This document shows, one piece after another, positions 6,106-48,257 of a DNA stretch of 64,000 nucleotides (positions are counted from its first letter, which is position 1; each line of letters begins with the position of its first letter). The notes beneath the pieces were generated by a model. The model did not search any database. It saw only the letters and a program-made list of their open reading frames with translations, and was not told the DNA's origin. A program made the position numbers and the translations under genes. Source of the stretch: an uncultured Monoglobus sp. (GTDB lineage Bacteria; Bacillota; Clostridia; Monoglobales; Monoglobaceae); assembly GCA_947628795.1 (NCBI GenBank), contig CANRBF010000001.1:124001-188000 (forward strand), given 5' to 3'.

Positions 6106-6365
6106 GGCGGCGTTTGCCTCGCCCCAAAGGGCGCCTATAATCTGCCTCCTCCCGGGAGGAGGTGGCTGCGGCAAGCCGCAGACGGAGGTGGGAACGTAGG
6201 TACTAGAGAATAGCAACTAGGGACTAGGAACCCCTCTCAGTCTGCTTCGCAGACAGCTCTCCCCAAGGGGCGAGCCTGACATAAACCGTGAGATGTTCCT
6301 AGTTTCTAGTACCTATTTCCTAGTCTCTACGCTGACAGCTCTCCCCAAGGGCGAGCCTTTGAGGC
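6106..6365. repeat. Composite intergenic repeat: variable hairpins plus two heptamer arrays
   Basis: Fills most of the 320-base gap before the tRNA promoter. In order: CCTCCTCCCGGGAGGAGG, hairpin CTGCGGC-AA-GCCGCAG, GACGGAGGTGGGAACGTAG, a heptamer array (6197-6228), CCCCTCTCAG, hairpin TCTGC-TTC-GCAGA, CAGCTCTCCCCAAGGGGCGAGCC, a reverse heptamer array (6295-6329, five units of the form (G/T)TNNCTA), and a second, truncated CAGCTCTCCCCAAGGGCGAGCC. Related elements occur in at least five other gaps of the window. No protein is predicted here. Confidence 0.85.
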
Positions 6366-14844: not shown

Positions 14845-17800
14845 ATGAGAAAAATATTATCCGCAATGCTGTGTTTGATTTTGGCGGTCTCTGCCGCGCC
14901 GCGGGCGGTGTTTTCGGAATCCGAAGCCGTGACGATCACCGAAGCCTCCGGCTGGTTCGAGTCGGCTTACGCCGAGTGGAGCGGAGCGGGCATTGACACC
15001 GTGAACGCGTATATCAAACCCGAAGGCGGCGAGTACGCGCCTATTGACCGCGAGCTTTTGCGCGAGTACAAAAACGGAACGCGCCGCGTTGACGCGGTCG
15101 GTCTTTCGGCCGGAAGCTATCGAATAAAAATAGTTCCCGCGGAAAACGGCGCCGAGGACGAGAGCCTCGCGGCGGAAACCGAAATACTCTCGGTCGGCTC
15201 TTACCCGAGAGAGGGTTTCGCTTTCAGCGCACAATCCCCCGAAAAGGACGCGAGCGGCGGCTATGAGCCTGACGGAACACCCAAAGACGGCGCGGACATA
15301 ATTTACGTCTCAAACGGCAACAAAGACCGCGTTATGATAGACGGGATACCCAAAGACGGCGTCGGGCTCGTGAGCATATTTGACTTCCGCGAGCGGAACA
15401 AGATCACCACGCCGCTGATCGTTCGGCTTATCGGCAGAGTTGACATGCCCGAGGGTATGGAAAAATATCTGCTCGGTATCCGCAATACCAAAAACGTGAC
15501 AATAGAAGGCGTAGGCGAGGACGCGGCTATCCACGGATGGGGAATAACATTCAAAGAATCCTCGAATATCGAGCTGCGCAACTTCGCGATAATGTGGTAC
15601 GGCGGCGGCACCGACAGCGACGCCACGGCTCTTGACGGAAACAACGACAACATCTGGATACACAACCTTGAATACTTTTACGGCGCTCACGGTCCCGATA
15701 CCGATCAGAGCAAAGGCGACGGCAGTATTGACATGAAAAATCAGTCGGACTACGTGACGATATCATACAATCATTTCTGGGATTCGGGAAAGACCACATT
15801 CACCGACAGCCCCGACGGCGCCTCAACAAAAACCCACGTCACCTATCATCACAATCACTTTGACCACTCGGATTCGCGCCACCCCAGATGCGTGGGAAGC
15901 GACGTTCATATGTACAACAACTATTATGACGGCGTTTCAAAGTACGGCATAGGCGCGGCCAAAGGCTCGTGCATATTCGCCGAGAACAATTATTTCAGAT
16001 ACTGCGCCAGACCCATGATAATCTCGAGTCAGGGCAGCGACGTTTATAACTCGAGCAAAAAGAATTACAGCGGCGACGGCACGCTGTCCGGCCAGGCGGG
16101 CGGAATGATAAAAGCCTTCGGCAATCATATGGGAGAATACGAGAGGTTTTACACTCAGCTTGACACTCCGAGCGACTTGGCTCCGGGAGTGAGCAACGCC
16201 GGTCATTTTGATTGTTATCTTGTATCAGACCGAGACGAGAAGGTGCCCGATACCTTCAAAGCGCTCAAGGGCGGCGCTGTGTATGACAACTTTGACACGG
16301 CGGCGAACATGTATGACTACAGCGCCGAAACAGCCGAAAACGCCGTTGAGACCGTTAAAAAATACGCGGGACGGATGAACGGCGGAGATTTTGAATACAC
16401 CTTCGAGAATTCGATCCAGGACAAAAACTATGACATAATACCCGAGCTTCAGACTTTGGTTGAAAACTATGACCCGCCGATCGCCAAAATCGGCGGAGAC
16501 GCGTCGCTGATCGTCGAGCAGCCGCCCGAACCGTCCGACGACAGGATAACGCACAATTTTACGACCCAAGGCACCGCGAGCAGCGTTTTTGAAATAAAAG
16601 GCTCGATCACCGACCTGTTCGGCATAATGCGGTACGACGCGGTCAACCTGACAAAATCCCTCAAGTTCGAGGGCAGCTCGTACATAAAATTCACGGCGCT
16701 CGGTCGGGGCATTATGACTCTGCTCGCCAATCCGTACCGCGGCTCGGTAAATGTCAAGGTAAACAACGAGGTCGTCCGCGGCGATCCCGAGACGGGACTT
16801 ATACAATTTAACGTGGAGCCCGGCGAGACATACAACATCACCCGCGACAGCGTTTCGTATCTGTTTTATCTTGTTCTGGAATACGACCCGAACAGCCCGA
16901 CAATAACGCCGCTTCCCACGCAGGAGCCCACATCGGCGCCCACCGTAAATCCGGGCGGTCCGACGCCCAACCCCGGCGGCGGCTCAGATCTTCCGCCAAG
17001 CGGCGGATATATCCATAATTTCACCGAAAGCGATATGAAAAGCGATTTTTACACAATAAGCGGCGCCACATCAAAGGACAGAGGATCTTTGGAATACGGC
17101 GGCATGACGCTTACAAACGCTTTTAAGCTGGGAAGCAGCTCGCGCATAAGCTTCACCGCTCCCGGAGACGGCGAAATGCTTTTGGTTTTCGGCGCATCAA
17201 GCACGCCGACGGCAAAGATCAACGGCGAGGCTGCGACGGGCAGCGGAAACACTTTGACATTTCCCGTAAATGGCGGCGAGAGCTATGATATCACAAAAAA
17301 CAGCGGAGAGCAGCTCATATACTACATGGCGCTGACTCTTGACGCGGCGGCAACAACCGAACCGAGCGGCGCTCCGTCGACCGAAAAGCCTACGGCGACA
17401 TCCGAGCCGAGCGACGCTCCGCCGACCGAAAAGCCTACGGCGACATCCGAGCCGAGCGGCGCCCCGCCGACCGAAAAGCCTACGGCGACATCCGAGCCGA
17501 GCGGCGCTCCGTCGACCGAAAAGCCTACGGCGACATCCGAGCCGAGCGGCGCCCCGCCGACCGAAAAACCTACGGCGACATCCGAGCCGAGCGGCGCCCC
17601 GCCAACCGAAAAACCTACGGCGACAATCGAGCCGAGCGGCGCCCCGTCGACCGAAAAACCTACGGCGACATCCGAGCCGAGCGGCGGCGCGTATTCGATA
17701 AAAGGCGCCCATAACTCAAATAACGCCTTGATCGCGAACGTGGAATACAGCGGTACAGGCGCGGCACCGAAAGCCACGCTGCTTGCCGCGAAATACAAAA

Positions 17801-40477: not shown

Positions 40478-40507
40478 CGCGGCTTTGAAAAAAGGCCGCG
40501 TATTTTT
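40478..40507 (+). terminator. Terminator of the kinase gene
   Basis: CGCGGC / GCCGCG with an A-rich 11-base loop, followed by TATTTTT. The 3' arm is also the outer edge of the large inverted duplication. Confidence 0.75.
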
Positions 40508-40581
40508 GCGCGAATTTTTGCAAAACGGGAACTTTTTGCAAAGTTTTGTCGTCTTACATATAAAGTACACAAAACGCCGTA

Positions 40582-40860
40582 GGGCGGATATTATCCGCCC
40601 GTCTGCCTCGCCCCTTGGGGAGGGAGAGGTGGCGCCGAAGGCGACGGAGAGGGAGACGAACGAACGTATGACTATCACTCCCTCTCAGTCTGCTTCGCAG
40701 ACAGCTCTCCCCCTTAAAAGGAGGTGAGCCAAAACGCCAACCAAAGCACGCGAAACACCGTAATGGCGGATACTATCCACCCGTCTGCCTCGCCCCTTGG
40801 GGAGAGGTGGATTTCCGCCAAAGGCGGAAAGACGGAGAGGGGTTTCCAAATTTTTTATAA
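40582..40860. repeat. Composite repeat upstream of the stalk-domain gene
   Basis: Palindrome 40582-40600, then GCCTCGCCCCTTGGGGAG, hairpin CGCC-GAA-GGCG, GACGGAGAGGG, CCCTCTCAG with hairpin TCTGC-TTC-GCAGA and CAGCTCTCCCCC; a degenerate palindrome at 40764-40782, then GCCTCGCCCCTTGGGGAG and hairpin TTTCCGCC-AAA-GGCGGAAA with GACGGAGAGGGG. It accounts for most of the 410-base gap before the gene. Confidence 0.85.
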
Positions 40861-40873
40861 GGAGAGATCATAT

Positions 40874-42277
40874 ATGAAAAAGAATATAATAATATTGACA
40901 ATTATATTAACTTTATTCTCCATAAATGTGTATTCAAGCGACTTGCAAATTGAATGCGAGATAATTGATAAAGGAGACAACTTTGTTTATCAATATAATG
41001 ACAAAGATATATTTTTAGGCAGCAATGGGCGTGAAGAAAATATTTGGTGGACGGGAAAGGAGTATATTTGGTTTAATGATTTAAACGGAAAGTATGAAAA
41101 GAGCACGGATGCGAGCAATTGGGAAGATCTATATATTCAGCCGGATGTCAGCGATAAACTTTTTAATCTTGATTATATGGAAATTTGTTACTGTGACGGT
41201 GTATATATTGCCCGAAGTTCCCTATATGATTCCCCGATCCAAATAATATCCGCATTGGAACATGATATGTTGAATACAGGTTTTGATCCTGTATATTGTC
41301 TGAATGAAAACTTTGAGACAATAGGAGAAACAAATTTCGAATATCCTGTTACGGCTTTTAGTTATTACGATGGCAGATTTTATATAAGAACACAGGACTA
41401 TAAAACAAACTACGCCGAAAATACTTATGTTGTCTCAAATTCGGAACATCAGCCGATCAATTATGTGTATGTTTCAAATGACGGCATATCATGGAATTTA
41501 GACGAATATTTGCAGGAAGTTCCGCTATATAGCGACGGAAAATTAATGACCTTCGGCAAAGGGAATTATGTTCGCGAAAAATATTCCGATTTATACTATT
41601 CATTAAATGATATATCGGTTGGATTTGAGAATAACAGTTCCGCAAAAGTTATATATGAACAGACCCCGTTTGGCTCATTTTCGGTTGTTGACGGGTTATT
41701 CCTATCTTATGACGGATTAGAGCGAAATAAAAAACCGGTACCTTATTTCAGCGTTTCAAACGACGGGGTATATTGGTATAATGTGAAGTTTCCCGACTTT
41801 TATGACGGTGAGATCTTGACAAGGGTATTCGAATTTAAGGATTCGTTTTTATTTAAAACCGGCAAAAGATTATTTAGATATGATCTCGATGACATTAAAA
41901 AGGAGCTGTCCGGTGATCCGATTTATATAAAACTAAACGGTAATATCCTCGGTTTTGCGCAGCCGCCGGTTATGGAAAGCGACAGAATACTGGTGCCGAT
42001 GCGTTTCCTGTTCGAACAAATGGGGGCCGAAGTAAATTGGAATGACGAAACCCAAACAGCTATAGCAACAAGCGCTCGGGACGAAGGCGAAAATACGGTA
42101 ACGTTTTCAATTGACAACACAACCGCCTATGTAAACGGCGCGGAAACCCCCATGGACGTCCCCGCCCACCTAATAGACGACCAAACCTTTGTGCCGCTTC
42201 GGTTCCTTTCCGAAAACCTAGGCTACACCGTAGAATGGGACGAGGCCGCAAACACCGCAGTGATCACAACAGAATAA
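40874..42277 (+). CDS. Secreted stalk-domain (copper amine oxidase N-like) protein, copy A
   Basis: 467 aa from ATG 40874 behind AGGAGAG; an open extension to 40724 is made of repeat sequence and is rejected. Signal peptide ends near NVYSSD. Residues about 25-330 are a Tyr/Asp/Ser-rich region with repeated VSNDGISW / VSNDGVYW motifs, suggesting a beta-propeller-like fold. The last ~115 residues are the stalk domain: RILVPMRFLFEQMGAEVNWND, then IDDQTFVPLRFLSENLGYTVEWDE. The N-terminal two thirds is much more A/T-rich than the 3' end. A paralogue lies in inverted orientation at 45854. Function unknown, probably wall-associated. Confidence 0.82.
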   Translation: MKKNIIILTIILTLFSINVYSSDLQIECEIIDKGDNFVYQYNDKDIFLGSNGREENIWWTGKEYIWFNDLNGKYEKSTDASNWEDLYIQPDVSDKLFNLDYMEICYCDGVYIARSSLYDSPIQIISALEHDMLNTGFDPVYCLNENFETIGETNFEYPVTAFSYYDGRFYIRTQDYKTNYAENTYVVSNSEHQPINYVYVSNDGISWNLDEYLQEVPLYSDGKLMTFGKGNYVREKYSDLYYSLNDISVGFENNSSAKVIYEQTPFGSFSVVDGLFLSYDGLERNKKPVPYFSVSNDGVYWYNVKFPDFYDGEILTRVFEFKDSFLFKTGKRLFRYDLDDIKKELSGDPIYIKLNGNILGFAQPPVMESDRILVPMRFLFEQMGAEVNWNDETQTAIATSARDEGENTVTFSIDNTTAYVNGAETPMDVPAHLIDDQTFVPLRFLSENLGYTVEWDEAANTAVITTE

Positions 42278-42299: not shown

Positions 42300-42535
42300 A
42301 TGATCCGGCCACAGTCCCCCCTCTCCCCCCCCACTTGCGCAGGGGAGGCAATAATGGATGGGCGCCCCCTCGGGGGAGCTGTCGGGCAACGCCCGACTGA
42401 GGGGGCCTAATCCCTACATTCCCACCTCCGTCAGGCTGCGCCTGACACCTCCTCCCGGGAGGAGGCAAAAATACGGCTGCGATTACGAGACGACAACCAT
42501 AGTGCGCAAAATATAAGGGCGGATATTATCCTCCC
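42300..42535. repeat. Composite repeat downstream of stalk-domain gene A
   Basis: Contains CCCCCTCGGGGGAGCTG, hairpin GTCGGGC-AA-CGCCCGAC, ACTGAGGGGG, one heptamer-like unit, CCCACCTCCG, hairpin TCAGGC-TGC-GCCTGA, CCTCCTCCCGGGAGGAGG and GGGCGGATATTATCCTCCC (42517-42535). Fills the 330-base gap together with the EF-G-like terminator. Confidence 0.85.
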
Positions 42536-42572: not shown

Positions 42573-42600
42573 AAAAAAAGAGCCGCGGCGCGGCTCTTTT
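42573..42600 (-). terminator. Terminator of the EF-G-like gene
   Basis: AAAAGAGCCGCG / CGCGGCTCTTTT with a single-base centre; on the minus strand followed by a T run. Confidence 0.88.
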
Positions 42601-42609
42601 GGTTTTTTA

Positions 42610-44673
42610 TTATTTGCCGGAGTCGGCTATGATCTTCTCGACTACGTTCTGAGGAGCTTCCTGATAGTGCTCGAATTCGAACTCGAAGTCGCCTCTGGCC
42701 TGGGTCATTGAGCGCAGGTCGGACGCGTAGGTGTGCATCTCCGCCATGGGGATCTCGCCCTCTATCATCGTCATGCCTCCGCCGATGGGCTCCATGCCCA
42801 GCATCTGACCGCGGCGCTTGTTGATGTCGCCGATGATATCGCCGGTGTAGCTGTCGGGCGCGTAAACCTTAAGGTGTCCGATAGGCTCAAGTATCGCGGG
42901 CGAAGCCTGGGGCATACCCGCCTTGTAGGCCAGCGAAGCCGCCGTCTTGAACGCCATTTCGGACGAGTCAACCTCGTGGTACGAGCCGTCCACCAGCGTG
43001 GCCTTGAGGCCGACCATGGGATAACCCGCCAGAATACCGTGCTTCATAGCTTCCTGCAGGCCCTTTTCGACCGCCGGGAAATAGCCCTTGGGAACGCTGC
43101 CGCCGAAGATCTTCTCCTCGAACGTCAGGCCTTCCTCGGTGGAGGGCTCAAACTCGATCCAAACGTGGCCGTACTGACCGTGTCCGCCCGACTGCTTCTT
43201 GTGCTTGCCTTCTACCTTTACCTTTTTGCGGATCGTCTCGCGGTAGGGAACCTTGGGCGTCTCAAACGAAATGTCAACTCCAAACTTGTTCTTGAGCTTT
43301 GAAACGATAACGTCAATATGCTGATCGCCGAGACCCTTGAGCAGCTGCTGGCGCGTCTCTTTGTTGGTCTCAAACGCGAAGGTCTGATCCTCGTCCATCA
43401 GCTTGATGAGACCCTGAGCGATCTTGTCCTCGTCGCCCTTCTTCTGGGATACGACAGCCAGCTCCATGTTGGGCTTTGAGAATTTGATTCCGTCCAGCAT
43501 GCAGGGATTTCCAACGCGGCTCAGCGTGTCGCCGGTCTTGGTCTTTGAAAGCTTGGTGACCGTTCCTATGTCGCCCGCGTTGAGCTGAGCGATCTCGGTC
43601 TGCTTTTTGCCCTGCATGGTGTATATCTTGCCTATCTTCTCGTTGCAGTCGCGGTTCAAGTTATAAACCGTGGTATCGGGCGTCATAACGCCCGAGAATA
43701 CCTTGAAGTATGACAGCTTGCCAACATACGGGTCGGCTACAGTCTTGAATACCAGCGCGCTCAGCGTGTCGCCCGAGTCTACCTTGAGCTCGATAACCTT
43801 GTCGCCGGGGCCTTTGGCGCTGATGTTCTCGGTCTTGTCGTTGGGAGCCGGGAAGTAAGCGTTGATCGCGTTAAGCAGCGAGGGGATACCCAGGTTCTTG
43901 GTCGCGCTTCCGCAGAGGACCGGAACTATATCGCCCTCGGCCACGCCGGCGCGCAGCGCGGAATACATCTCGGGCAGAGTGAACTCCTCGCCCTCGAAAT
44001 ATTTCTCCATCAGCTCTTCCGACTGCTCGGCGACCGCCTCTTTGATCATCTCGCGGTTTTCCTCGAGCTCGTCCTCTATGCCCGCGGGCATTTCGCCCGT
44101 GATCGTGCGGTTTCCGTCAAAAATTCTGGCCTCCTGCTCAACCACGTTAACAAAGCCCGTGATCTTGTCGCCTTCCTTGATGGGAAGCTGGAAGGGCGCT
44201 ATCTTCTTGCCGTACTTATCCTTGAGCTGCTGCAGGACCTTCTGATAATCAACGCGGTCGTCGTCAACCTTGTTGATGAATATCATCTTGGGAATGCCGT
44301 AATCCTCGCAGTATTTCCAAGCCTTCTCGGCGCCTACCGAAAGACCTGCCTCGCCGGAGATCACGATGATCGCCGCGTCTGTAACGCGCAGGACCTGCTG
44401 TACCTCGCCCACAAAGTCAAAATATCCGGGCGTGTCGAGAATATTCAGCTTGTTGCCGTTCCACTCGCAGGACGCCAGCGCCGCTGAGATCGAAAACTTG
44501 CGCTTGATCTCCTCGGGGTCAAAGTCCATAACGGCGGTGCCGTCCTGGGTTTTGCCCATTCTGTCGATGTTTCCGGCGGTGTAAAGCATTGCCTCCGCCA
44601 GACTTGTCTTGCCGGCGTTGCCGTGACCCAGCAGACAGAAGTTTTTGATTTTTGAAGTTTCGTAAACTTTCAT
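42610..44673 (-). CDS. EF-G-like translational GTPase
   Basis: 687 aa with the five EF-G domains. G1 GHGNAGKTSLAEAMLY, G3 DTPGYFDFVGE, G4 NKVD, C-terminal EF-G IV-V (HYEVDS-like SYHEVDSSEMAFKTA, HTYASDLRSMTQARGDF). It belongs to the EF-G-like subfamily, not canonical FusA: switch I reads KRKFSI instead of the RGITI-type sequence and the catalytic His of DTPGH is Tyr. Tyr is usual in this subfamily. Role in translation or recycling is not settled. Single gene inside the spacer of the inverted duplication, with its own terminator. Confidence 0.9.
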   Translation of the reverse strand: MKVYETSKIKNFCLLGHGNAGKTSLAEAMLYTAGNIDRMGKTQDGTAVMDFDPEEIKRKFSISAALASCEWNGNKLNILDTPGYFDFVGEVQQVLRVTDAAIIVISGEAGLSVGAEKAWKYCEDYGIPKMIFINKVDDDRVDYQKVLQQLKDKYGKKIAPFQLPIKEGDKITGFVNVVEQEARIFDGNRTITGEMPAGIEDELEENREMIKEAVAEQSEELMEKYFEGEEFTLPEMYSALRAGVAEGDIVPVLCGSATKNLGIPSLLNAINAYFPAPNDKTENISAKGPGDKVIELKVDSGDTLSALVFKTVADPYVGKLSYFKVFSGVMTPDTTVYNLNRDCNEKIGKIYTMQGKKQTEIAQLNAGDIGTVTKLSKTKTGDTLSRVGNPCMLDGIKFSKPNMELAVVSQKKGDEDKIAQGLIKLMDEDQTFAFETNKETRQQLLKGLGDQHIDVIVSKLKNKFGVDISFETPKVPYRETIRKKVKVEGKHKKQSGGHGQYGHVWIEFEPSTEEGLTFEEKIFGGSVPKGYFPAVEKGLQEAMKHGILAGYPMVGLKATLVDGSYHEVDSSEMAFKTAASLAYKAGMPQASPAILEPIGHLKVYAPDSYTGDIIGDINKRRGQMLGMEPIGGGMTMIEGEIPMAEMHTYASDLRSMTQARGDFEFEFEHYQEAPQNVVEKIIADSGK

Positions 44674-45627: not shown

Positions 45628-45835
45628 GTAGTGATTAGTGATTAGCGAATAGTAAATAGGGCGGATATTATCCGCCACTACGGATTTGCGCATTTTGGCC
45701 GAAGTCTCGTAATCGCAGCCGTATTTTTGCCTCCTCCCGGGAGGAGGTGGCAGGCGCAGCCTGACGGAGGTGGGAATGTAGGGATAGGCTCCCCTGCGCA
45801 AGTGGGGAGAGGGGTACTGTGGCCGGATCATATGA
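45628..45835. repeat. Composite repeat downstream of stalk-domain gene B
   Basis: ACGTA anchor, four heptamers (45631-45658: GTGATTA, GTGATTA, GCGAATA, GTAAATA), palindrome GGGCGGATATTATCCGCCA (45659-45677), CCTCCTCCCGGGAGGAGG, hairpin CAGGC-GCA-GCCTG, GACGGAGGTGGGAATGTAG, and CCCCTGCGCAAGTGGGGAG. Occupies the 370-base gap between the DUF2798 gene and copy B. Confidence 0.87.
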
Positions 45836-45853: not shown

Positions 45854-47194
45854 TTATTCCGTTGTTATTACTGCGGTGTTTGCGGCCTCGTCCCATTCGA
45901 CTGCATATCCTAAGTTTTCGGAGAGAAAGCGCAGGGGCACAAATGTTTGGTCGTTGATAAGGCGGGTGGGGACATCCATGGCGGTTTCCGCGCCGTTCAC
46001 ATAGGCGGTGGTGTTGTCGATTGAAAACGTGACGATGTTTTCGCCTCCGTCCCGAGCGCTTATTGCGGTGGCTGTTTGGGTTTCGTCGTTCCAGTCGACC
46101 TCGGCTCCCATTTGCTCAAACAGGAAGCGCATCGGCACAAGTGTTCGATCATTTTCCATAACCGGCGGCTGACTAAAGCCGAGGATATTACCGTTTAGTT
46201 TCACATAGACGCTGTTTTGTGGCAGGTATTTGTCTATATCACTTTTTAATATATAGTTTTTATCCCACGAATAACGCAGGGTATCGGCGGCGTTTAATTC
46301 GGGAAAAGCTATATTAAAGCCAGTCATATATATGCCGTCATTGGATACCCAAAATTTGCAGCCGGGATCCTCTCGTAAGTTATTGTTGGCGACCCAATAA
46401 TATTCTCCCACCAAATTTAATATTTGTTGATTTTCCGTGTTGGCATACGCCAAATCGACCTTTGGTATATTCACATCCTCATACGCGATCCGATTTCCGA
46501 TACCGTCATTTTCAAAAGTGTATATATTCAGGTCTTTTAAAGTTATCGTATTTGTGCCGTTACATAGAGGTATATTTTCAAGCTCATTCCTCTCCGTCCA
46601 GTTTTCCAAATCGCTTGACGAATACACCTTTTCAACCACATCGTCCGCTGTTGCTGACCAAACATTCTCCCTCAGAAAGGTCCTGTTTGATATTTTCACA
46701 TAATATATCCCGTTAATATATGACATCGCTCTGACATACCAATCGAATTTTATTTTTTTCACAAATTGGAAATCGCTGTCCAGAATATATAACCAGCCCT
46801 CTTTTTCAAGACATCTTCCGCTTTTGCTGGTGTTATCGTACACATTTGAACGCGCCAAATATACTCCGTCAGCCCACTTTATTTCATCCATATAGCCGGC
46901 TCTGCTGAACAAATCGTAGCTTTCCCTGTCATTAAACAAATTTACACTTTTGTAGTTTTCGAAATCCTCGGTAAAACACTGCTCAAAATCGCCGGAATCA
47001 TTTTCTTTTTTCACCAAATATCCGTTGCCCACATATTGAATGTCCTTTATATCCGTGCGGACCTCGCCGTTTATATATATCTCGGCGCTGTTTCGATCAA
47101 TAAGATGAACAATGCTCGGATCATCGACTGTATTGGCATATACCGCCGAACCGATCAAACATATTATTATGAATATTGAAAATATCTTTTTCAT
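45854..47194 (-). CDS. Secreted stalk-domain protein, copy B
   Basis: 446 aa. Signal peptide ends near AVYAN. N-terminal ~325 residues (Asn/Asp/Tyr-rich, with a WVSNDGIYMTG motif) are only weakly similar to copy A, whereas the last ~115 residues are almost identical: TLVPMRFLFEQMGAEVDWND and INDQTFVPLRFLSENLGYAVEWDE. The DNA is A/T-rich in the N-terminal part. ATG 47194 has AAGGAGAG upstream. A structural or surface role is likely; no catalytic motif seen. Confidence 0.83.
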   Translation of the reverse strand: MKKIFSIFIIICLIGSAVYANTVDDPSIVHLIDRNSAEIYINGEVRTDIKDIQYVGNGYLVKKENDSGDFEQCFTEDFENYKSVNLFNDRESYDLFSRAGYMDEIKWADGVYLARSNVYDNTSKSGRCLEKEGWLYILDSDFQFVKKIKFDWYVRAMSYINGIYYVKISNRTFLRENVWSATADDVVEKVYSSSDLENWTERNELENIPLCNGTNTITLKDLNIYTFENDGIGNRIAYEDVNIPKVDLAYANTENQQILNLVGEYYWVANNNLREDPGCKFWVSNDGIYMTGFNIAFPELNAADTLRYSWDKNYILKSDIDKYLPQNSVYVKLNGNILGFSQPPVMENDRTLVPMRFLFEQMGAEVDWNDETQTATAISARDGGENIVTFSIDNTTAYVNGAETAMDVPTRLINDQTFVPLRFLSENLGYAVEWDEAANTAVITTE

Positions 47195-47229: not shown

Positions 47230-47540
47230 TTAACGGGCGGCCGGGGTCGTCCGCCCCTACGAACGTAGAGACTAGGAAATAGGTACTAGCTACTAGGAAT
47301 ATATTGTGAGGATATACAAATGGTTTTAGTCCTAGTTTCTAGTCGCTAATCTCTAGTACCTATGTTCCCACCTCCGTCCGCGGCGAGCCGCAGCCACCTC
47401 CTCCCAGGAGGAGGCAATCAGGGTTAGGCGCCCCCCTCGGGGGAGCTGGCGGGCGAAGCCCGACTGAGGGGGGAACCTATTCGCTATTTACTAATCGCTA
47501 ATCACTACGTTGGCAGACGGGCGGATAATATCCGCCCTAC
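47230..47540. repeat. Composite repeat with three heptamer arrays
   Basis: Part of a 550-base gene-free stretch. Heptamer array 1 47268-47302 (GAGACTA, GGAAATA, GGTACTA, GCTACTA); array 2 47328-47363 in the opposite sense (GTTTCTA, GTCGCTA, ATCTCTA, GTACCTA); hairpin GCGGC-GA-GCCGC with CCTCCTCCCAGGAGGAGG; hairpin GGGC-GAA-GCCC with CTGAGGGGGG; array 3 47480-47507 (TTCGCTA, TTTACTA, ATCGCTA, ATCACTA); ACGTT anchor; palindrome GGGCGGATAATATCCGCCC (47519-47537). The rest of the gap (to 47663) is the outer duplication block with GCAAAAAGTT/AACTTTTTGC-type dyads. Confidence 0.87.
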
Positions 47541-48116: not shown

Positions 48117-48257
48117 TGCCTCGCCCCTTGGGGAGAGGTGCCCGCTTGCGGGCGGAGAGGGGTTAACATAGGTGCTAGGTATTAGTGACTAAGGACTAGG
48201 GACTAGAAACCCCTCTCAGTCGCCTTCGGCGCCAGCTCTCCCCAAGGGGCGAGCCTT
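48117..48257. repeat. Composite repeat inside the feo operon
   Basis: GCCTCGCCCCTTGGGGAGAGGTG, hairpin CCCGC-TT-GCGGG, GGAGAGGGG, heptamers 48171-48205 (GGTGCTA, GGTATTA, GTGACTA, AGGACTA, GGGACTA), then CCCCTCTCAG, hairpin CGCC-TTCG-GCG, CAGCTCTCCCCAAGGGGCGAGCC. Nearly all of the 195 bases between two genes on the same strand. Confidence 0.87.

Follow-up and report, generated by a model that had tools for sequence, protein, structure and literature searches.

What are the hairpins that recur between the genes of this stretch of Monoglobus DNA, with stems whose letters change from copy to copy while their pairing persists? The window, meaning the whole 64,000-nucleotide stretch that was analysed, covers bases 124001–188000 of contig C1 in a genome of 2.35 Mb (25 contigs, 96% complete). 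A preliminary description had quoted ten such stems, and all ten were located, each within about 10 bases of where it had been placed. Our preferred answer, to which we give a probability of about 0.62, is that they are short, palindromic, non-coding DNA elements forming a multi-copy family of the REP/REPIN/BIME kind, whose spread and stem upkeep follow the scheme proposed below.

The elements are built from two kinds of half. An X half reads HP1-GTG-stem-CGGAG and a Y half HP1′-CTG-stem-CTGAG, where HP1 is the flanking hairpin of each half, with a purine arm at its end. X followed by inverted Y forms a composite. The window contains 12 half-elements, spanning 6143 to 48255, which are arranged as follows.

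6143..6276, + strand: composite, X then inverted Y, between a Peptidase_M15 gene and tRNA-Leu/tRNA-Gln; a frame C X paired with a frame A/B-like Y
6159..6187, + strand: X half, stem CTGCGGC/GCCGCAG, flanks GAGGTGG..ACGGAG
6236..6259, − strand: Y half, stem TCTGC/GCAGA, flanks GAGCTG..CTGAG
6336..6356, − strand: partial Y-like remnant, GGGGAGAGCTG without the second flank
40604..40730, + strand: composite, frame A, between a histidine kinase gene and a Cu_amine_oxidN1 gene
40626..40649, + strand: X half, stem GCGCC/GGCGA
40684..40707, − strand: Y half, stem TCTGC/GCAGA
40804..40837, + strand: single X half, stem TTTCCGCC/GGCGGAAA
42376..42451, − strand: composite between convergent genes; Y stem TCGGGC (42376–42401, +) and X stem TCAGGC (42426–42451, −)
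45744..45769, + strand: single X half, stem CAGGC/GCCTG
47372..47468, unstranded: outward (permuted) X and Y; X stem CTGCGGC (47372–47400, −) and Y stem GCGGGC (47443–47468, +)
48117..48255, + strand: composite, frame B; X stem CCCGC (48135–48157, +) and Y stem GCGCC (48215–48238, −)

Two other features share these gaps. Another palindromic family, in which CGTAGGGG precedes a variable hairpin (GGGCGGATATTATCCGCCC, GGGACGTCGAGGGCGCCGTCCC and GGGCGGCAATCTGCCGCCC among others), is often found directly next to X/Y composites; it occurs in the window at 40570–40604 and 45660–45676, and in many gaps of the same contig and of G010 C1. Separately, the genes with a Cu_amine_oxidN1 domain at 40874–42277 (+) and 45854–47194 (−) share an inverted stretch of about 420 bp that is about 84% identical. 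They flank an EF-G-like gene (42610–44673), and relatives hold further paralogues.

The family with its constant flanks is real. In the window, GGGGAGAGSTG with at most one mismatch has 10 matches against 1.1 expected (0/100 shuffles). Genome-wide, three patterns that are blind to the stem, demanding no complementarity of the variable part, give at least 157 strict half-element matches: 37 for GGAGAGSTG-N8-30-GGAGAGGG, 78 for the Y pattern GRGAGCTGTC-N4-16-GACTGAGRG and 42 for CGGGAGGAGGTG-N8-30-GGAGGTGGGAACG. Read backwards in the same genome, each of the three gives 0 matches. The distribution is uneven, with about 40 copies in 267 kb of C1 and no convincing copy in 160 kb of C2 (C2:1-160000). 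Four tandem composites of nearly identical sequence, with a 129-bp period, stand at C1:220432-220904.

Among 48 neighbour pairs less than 150 bp apart, X is inverted to Y about a spacer in 28; the remaining 20 are mostly in outward order (14), the arrangement that tandem or permuted copies should give. The outer arm of X, GGGGAGAG-G-TG, is complementary to the Y arm CA-G-CTCTCCCC save for a single G.G mismatch, and CGGAGAGGG is complementary to CCCTCTCAG save for a single G.A mismatch, both mismatch positions being constant. Arms match their own partner within a composite better (0.817) than shuffled partners (mean 0.788, maximum 0.8125 in 2000). Energy minimisation folds some composites into a four-way junction, others into serial hairpins and the rest into long cross-paired hairpins.

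It had been proposed that the stems vary in ways that preserve pairing, with random GC-rich sequence named as the alternative. At loci from named organisms, Watson–Crick pairs fill 183 of 204 cells at the first three variable positions beside the constant GTC/GAC; 2000 re-pairings gave 99 on average and never more than 120. Across the class, a set of 29 distinct 28-mers has 98.3% of its cells paired, and 28 cells are altered on both sides where 5.9 were expected. The covariation score of the three inner pairs is 0.439 in that set, against 0.101 when shuffled (0/500) and at most 0.088 when the register is slid; the shuffles ignore sequence relatedness, but the slid control retains it and is far exceeded too. 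The first variable pair occurs as A-U, G-C, U-A and C-G, plus one G-U. Two-sided change that keeps pairing is therefore far beyond the shuffled controls, and the variable stems are not random GC-rich sequence.

The stem does not, however, differ every time, as had been stated. Pairing is kept throughout, but about a dozen stem types recur: GCC, CCCGC, CAGGC, TTTCCGCC/TTTTCGCC and CTGCGGC in X halves, and AGC, ACC, GCC, TGC, GGC, GGGC and AGGC in Y halves. The flanks, described as constant, are so in the class-wide Y pattern, but themselves fall into at least three frames. Across the genus, X halves occupy three frames, set by flanks and spacer. By hand counts, in which a few mismatched copies were assigned to the nearest type, frame A holds GCC 17, CCCGC 7, TTTCCGCC 7 and TTTTCGCC 4 (TTTYCGCC together 11); frame B holds TTTCCGCC 23, CCCGC 20, CAGGC 15, TTTTCGCC 3 and GCC 2 (TTTYCGCC together 26); and frame C holds CAGGC 38, CTGCGGC 33, TTTTCGCC 29, TTTCCGCC 6 and other 3 (TTTYCGCC together 35). 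Identical stem types recur in frames A, B and C, and thus the same stems sit inside different frames. The spacers of frames B and C are built from degenerate words in tandem, such as ACTAGGGACTAG / CTAGTACCTA (for example at 48166–48207 of the window). A further frame, with GGGGAAG arms, GATGAGGTGTC ends and outward X–Y order inside an 11-bp perfect inverted repeat, was seen at G002_C12 near 16560 and G011_C25 near 41510.

These counts bear on what keeps the stems paired. The preliminary description saw selection, or a mechanism acting on the fold. Upkeep of pairing stands, but some of the differences between stems may have arisen without selection on the fold, because pre-existing stem types are reshuffled between copies. 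Hairpin-templated correction could also hold the arms complementary without such selection. Template switching homogenises the arms of inverted repeats and inverts spacers (PMC8604942, PMC7202029). Such switching at quasipalindromes might by itself preserve pairing in inert debris spread by segmental recombination. In keeping with this, TTTCCGCC and TTTTCGCC swap within each frame with both arms changed, the fully paired versions of both being common and half-changed forms few, and loops are more variable than stems. Purely neutral upkeep nevertheless leaves unexplained the class-wide constancy of the GTG..CGGAG and CTG..CTGAG feet and the asymmetry of X and Y, and we consider it rather unlikely as the whole account.

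If the hairpins were mobile, as had been suggested, related genomes should differ in where they lie. Among genus genomes whose flanks are roughly 85–98% identical, the same gaps are filled, empty or otherwise filled. The site at 48117–48255, for example, is empty in G002 and G009, holds a Y with another stem in G010 and G011, and carries several elements in G003. At other polymorphic sites the entire gap contents are replaced. This presence/absence polymorphism backs mobility or at least rapid turnover, and polymorphic gaps could also arise by deletion and recombination instead of transposition. A 35-bp sequence that is single in G002 is present twice in G004, once on each side of a lone Y; apart from this one case, no target duplication was recognisable among the few clean sites compared. 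These sites speak to whether the composites are classical MITEs that depend on an ordinary DDE transposase acting in trans. Their outer ends, TGCCTC..GAGCC, would serve as terminal inverted repeats with one mismatch, and copy sizes of 110–180 bp fit. A MITE, however, should leave a constant short target duplication and need not have covarying internal stems; single halves and outward-facing pairs occur as well, and no full-length parent element recurs beside copies in a survey of their protein neighbours. We hold a MITE to be very unlikely.

At one shared locus a stem has been replaced in place. G006_C27 and G010_C8 have an identical 34-nt spacer and Y stem but X stems CCCGC and GCGCC, and their HP1 hairpins differ too, with pairing retained. 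Ordinary ectopic gene conversion is enough here, since both copies are in frame A and share long common flanks. Exchange between frames is harder to explain in that way, because the flanks common to the frames comprise just 6–7 bases per side. A bolder possibility is that stems are exchangeable cassettes, a structure-specific enzyme swapping whole hairpins between the constant feet of a four-way-junction element. We think this doubtful; if true, it would be a new kind of palindrome mobility, independent of stem sequence and of any HUH transposase, across a class of gut bacteria.

The elements are intergenic, favour convergent gaps and are fewer between divergent genes. Of 71 copies in nine stretches totalling about 1.1 Mb, 65 fall outside predicted ORFs, and the earlier statement that the element contains no ORF was borne out. 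The gaps of 62 classified copies are 21 convergent, 34 tandem and 7 divergent, where gap length predicts about 9.5, 37.6 and 14.9 (convergent gaps make up about 15% of gap length); the underlying gene calls are rough, being ORF-based, and members of one cluster are not independent observations, so these counts are weaker than they look. Such placement would also suit RNA-level elements at gene 3′ ends, whether terminators, attenuators or mRNA-stabilising hairpins, under selection in the transcript. RNA folds of the composites are very stable, at −55 to −84 kcal/mol, and REPs in other organisms have side roles of this sort (PMC3733652). As candidate intrinsic terminators, which combine a GC-rich hairpin with a T-tract, the composites were rejected: at least five T in eight bases occur at 4 of 25 right ends and at none of the 28 left ends. 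Distinct terminator-like hairpins stand nearby (for example at 40497–40512 and 42576–42600), and Rfam recognises two tRNAs alone above the gathering score in the window, with no family match for the elements. Mismatched stems are too few for the balance of G.U and A.C to show RNA-level selection, and the elements have no set orientation with respect to genes. Sites are, moreover, gained and lost among close relatives. For these reasons an RNA-level function seems improbable as the primary explanation.

The family extends well beyond this genome. The Y pattern occurs in 40 of 292 class genomes and 29 of 184 genera; carriers among the matches listed include Faecalibacterium prausnitzii, Monoglobus, Oscillospiraceae and Ruminococcaceae MAGs, Christensenellaceae, and Pseudoflavonifractor and Epulopiscium-like records. 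A plasmid collection gave no composite match, and just 23 stretches of viral contigs matched. At four loci (L055, L234, L247, L249) a terminase-like phage gene is found no more than 500 bp from half-elements, and therefore phages or prophages may carry them.

What might move such copies? The preliminary description had named a REP-type nuclease. A REPIN moved by a RAYT (a Y1/HUH transposase) encoded in the same genome would agree with the REP-like anatomy and BIME-like inverted pairs. PF01797 (Y1_Tnp, RAYT), however, is absent from the element's own genome and five other copy-rich genus-mates (G000, G002, G004, G009, G010 and G011), and among the genus members searched it is present in G003 and G006 alone. 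A RAYT gene could be missed in one 96%-complete genome, but is unlikely to be missed in six, and a resident RAYT is the least credible of the explanations considered. PF00078 (RVT_1, reverse transcriptase) is absent from the own genome and most copy-rich relatives, and neither a recurrent transposase family nor a full-length parent was found beside copies in some 2 Mb of sequence from the genus together with the named and viral loci.

Our preferred reading, that of a REP/REPIN/BIME-like DNA element, would work as follows. The near-palindrome formed by X and inverted Y could extrude as hairpins or as a four-way junction, and we infer that the DNA hairpin is the form recognised. Some mechanism would spread or exchange copies, both inside one genome and from one genome to another, by recognising the constant feet (GTG..CGGAG, CTG..CTGAG) together with a paired stem, the stem's letters not being what it reads. 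The acting enzyme probably comes from another source or is no longer present. Stem variation is probably explained by two processes: ectopic conversion between copies, which would swap whole hairpins so that stems stay paired, and correction of the arms against each other by template switching, which would keep them complementary. Selection on the folded form may be a third force. Against this reading stand the failure to find a dedicated transposase (PF01797, PF00078, recurrent neighbours) and a consistent target duplication.

The family may be informative in several ways. First, it extends REP/REPIN-like palindromes to gut Clostridia (Faecalibacterium, Monoglobus, Oscillospiraceae and Christensenellaceae records), from which the main REP survey lists none (PMC3733652). 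Second, its copies and reshuffled stems form a natural experiment in the upkeep of palindrome pairing and in spread without a recognisable transposase. Finally, gene callers and assemblers may be misled by such DNA in abundant gut genomes.

It is useful to compare these elements with known systems. They resemble bacterial MITEs in size, inverted ends and want of an ORF, but differ in having no constant target duplication, covarying internal stems and independent halves. With REPINs and BIMEs, built from GTAG REPs with a RAYT, they share a pair of dissimilar palindromic units in inverted order around a short spacer, a high copy number, intergenic location, mosaic clusters, and folding either separately or as one structure. 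Unlike them, they have no GTAG foot (the feet being GTG..CGGAG and CTG..CTGAG), and no Y1/RAYT gene was found in the six copy-rich genomes.

The closest likeness is to CGTC-tagged REPs, which have a CGTC foot, an 8–9 bp stem opening with A/T pairs, a CCA tail and no dedicated transposase, and whose dimers are mostly head-to-head with tags outside; the survey of this super-family mentions neither Firmicutes nor Clostridia (Di Nocera et al. 2013, PMC3733652). Reversed, an X half reads CGTC, stem and tail. The TTTCCGCC type is CGTC-TTTCCGCC-NNN-GGCGGAAA-TCCA, with AT-type first pairs and a CCA tail. Nearly all X halves have the CGTC (or TGTC/CCTC) foot, the CCCGC type (CCGCCCGC) excepted. The tail is TCCA or GCCA in TTTY, GCC and part of the CAGGC and CTGCGGC copies, and GACA in others. 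Further likenesses are subfamilies with alternative complementary stem residues, dimers, intergenic and often convergent placement, and the lack of a dedicated transposase (PF01797 in no copy-rich genome, none recurrent beside copies). In contrast, tags face the spacer in 28 close pairs and outward in 14, Y halves carry AGTC, and each half includes the second flanking hairpin HP1. Complementary A/T at the first two stem positions is confined to the TTTCCGCC/TTTTCGCC type (72 of 207 X copies by hand count) and was not seen in the CAGGC, CCCGC, GCC and CTGCGGC types; most other X stem types open GC-rich and pair through the tag. We therefore call the family REP-like and a variant, not a proven member of the CGTC group, because its dimers are mostly reversed and its other stem types do not fit. 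The open full-text literature, with subscription journals and preprints outside it, yielded REP papers and no description of these repeats. The branch, the X/Y anatomy with HP1, the reshuffled stems and the lack of a recognisable mover appear undescribed there, and the kind of element to which they belong, REP/REPIN/BIME, is already known.
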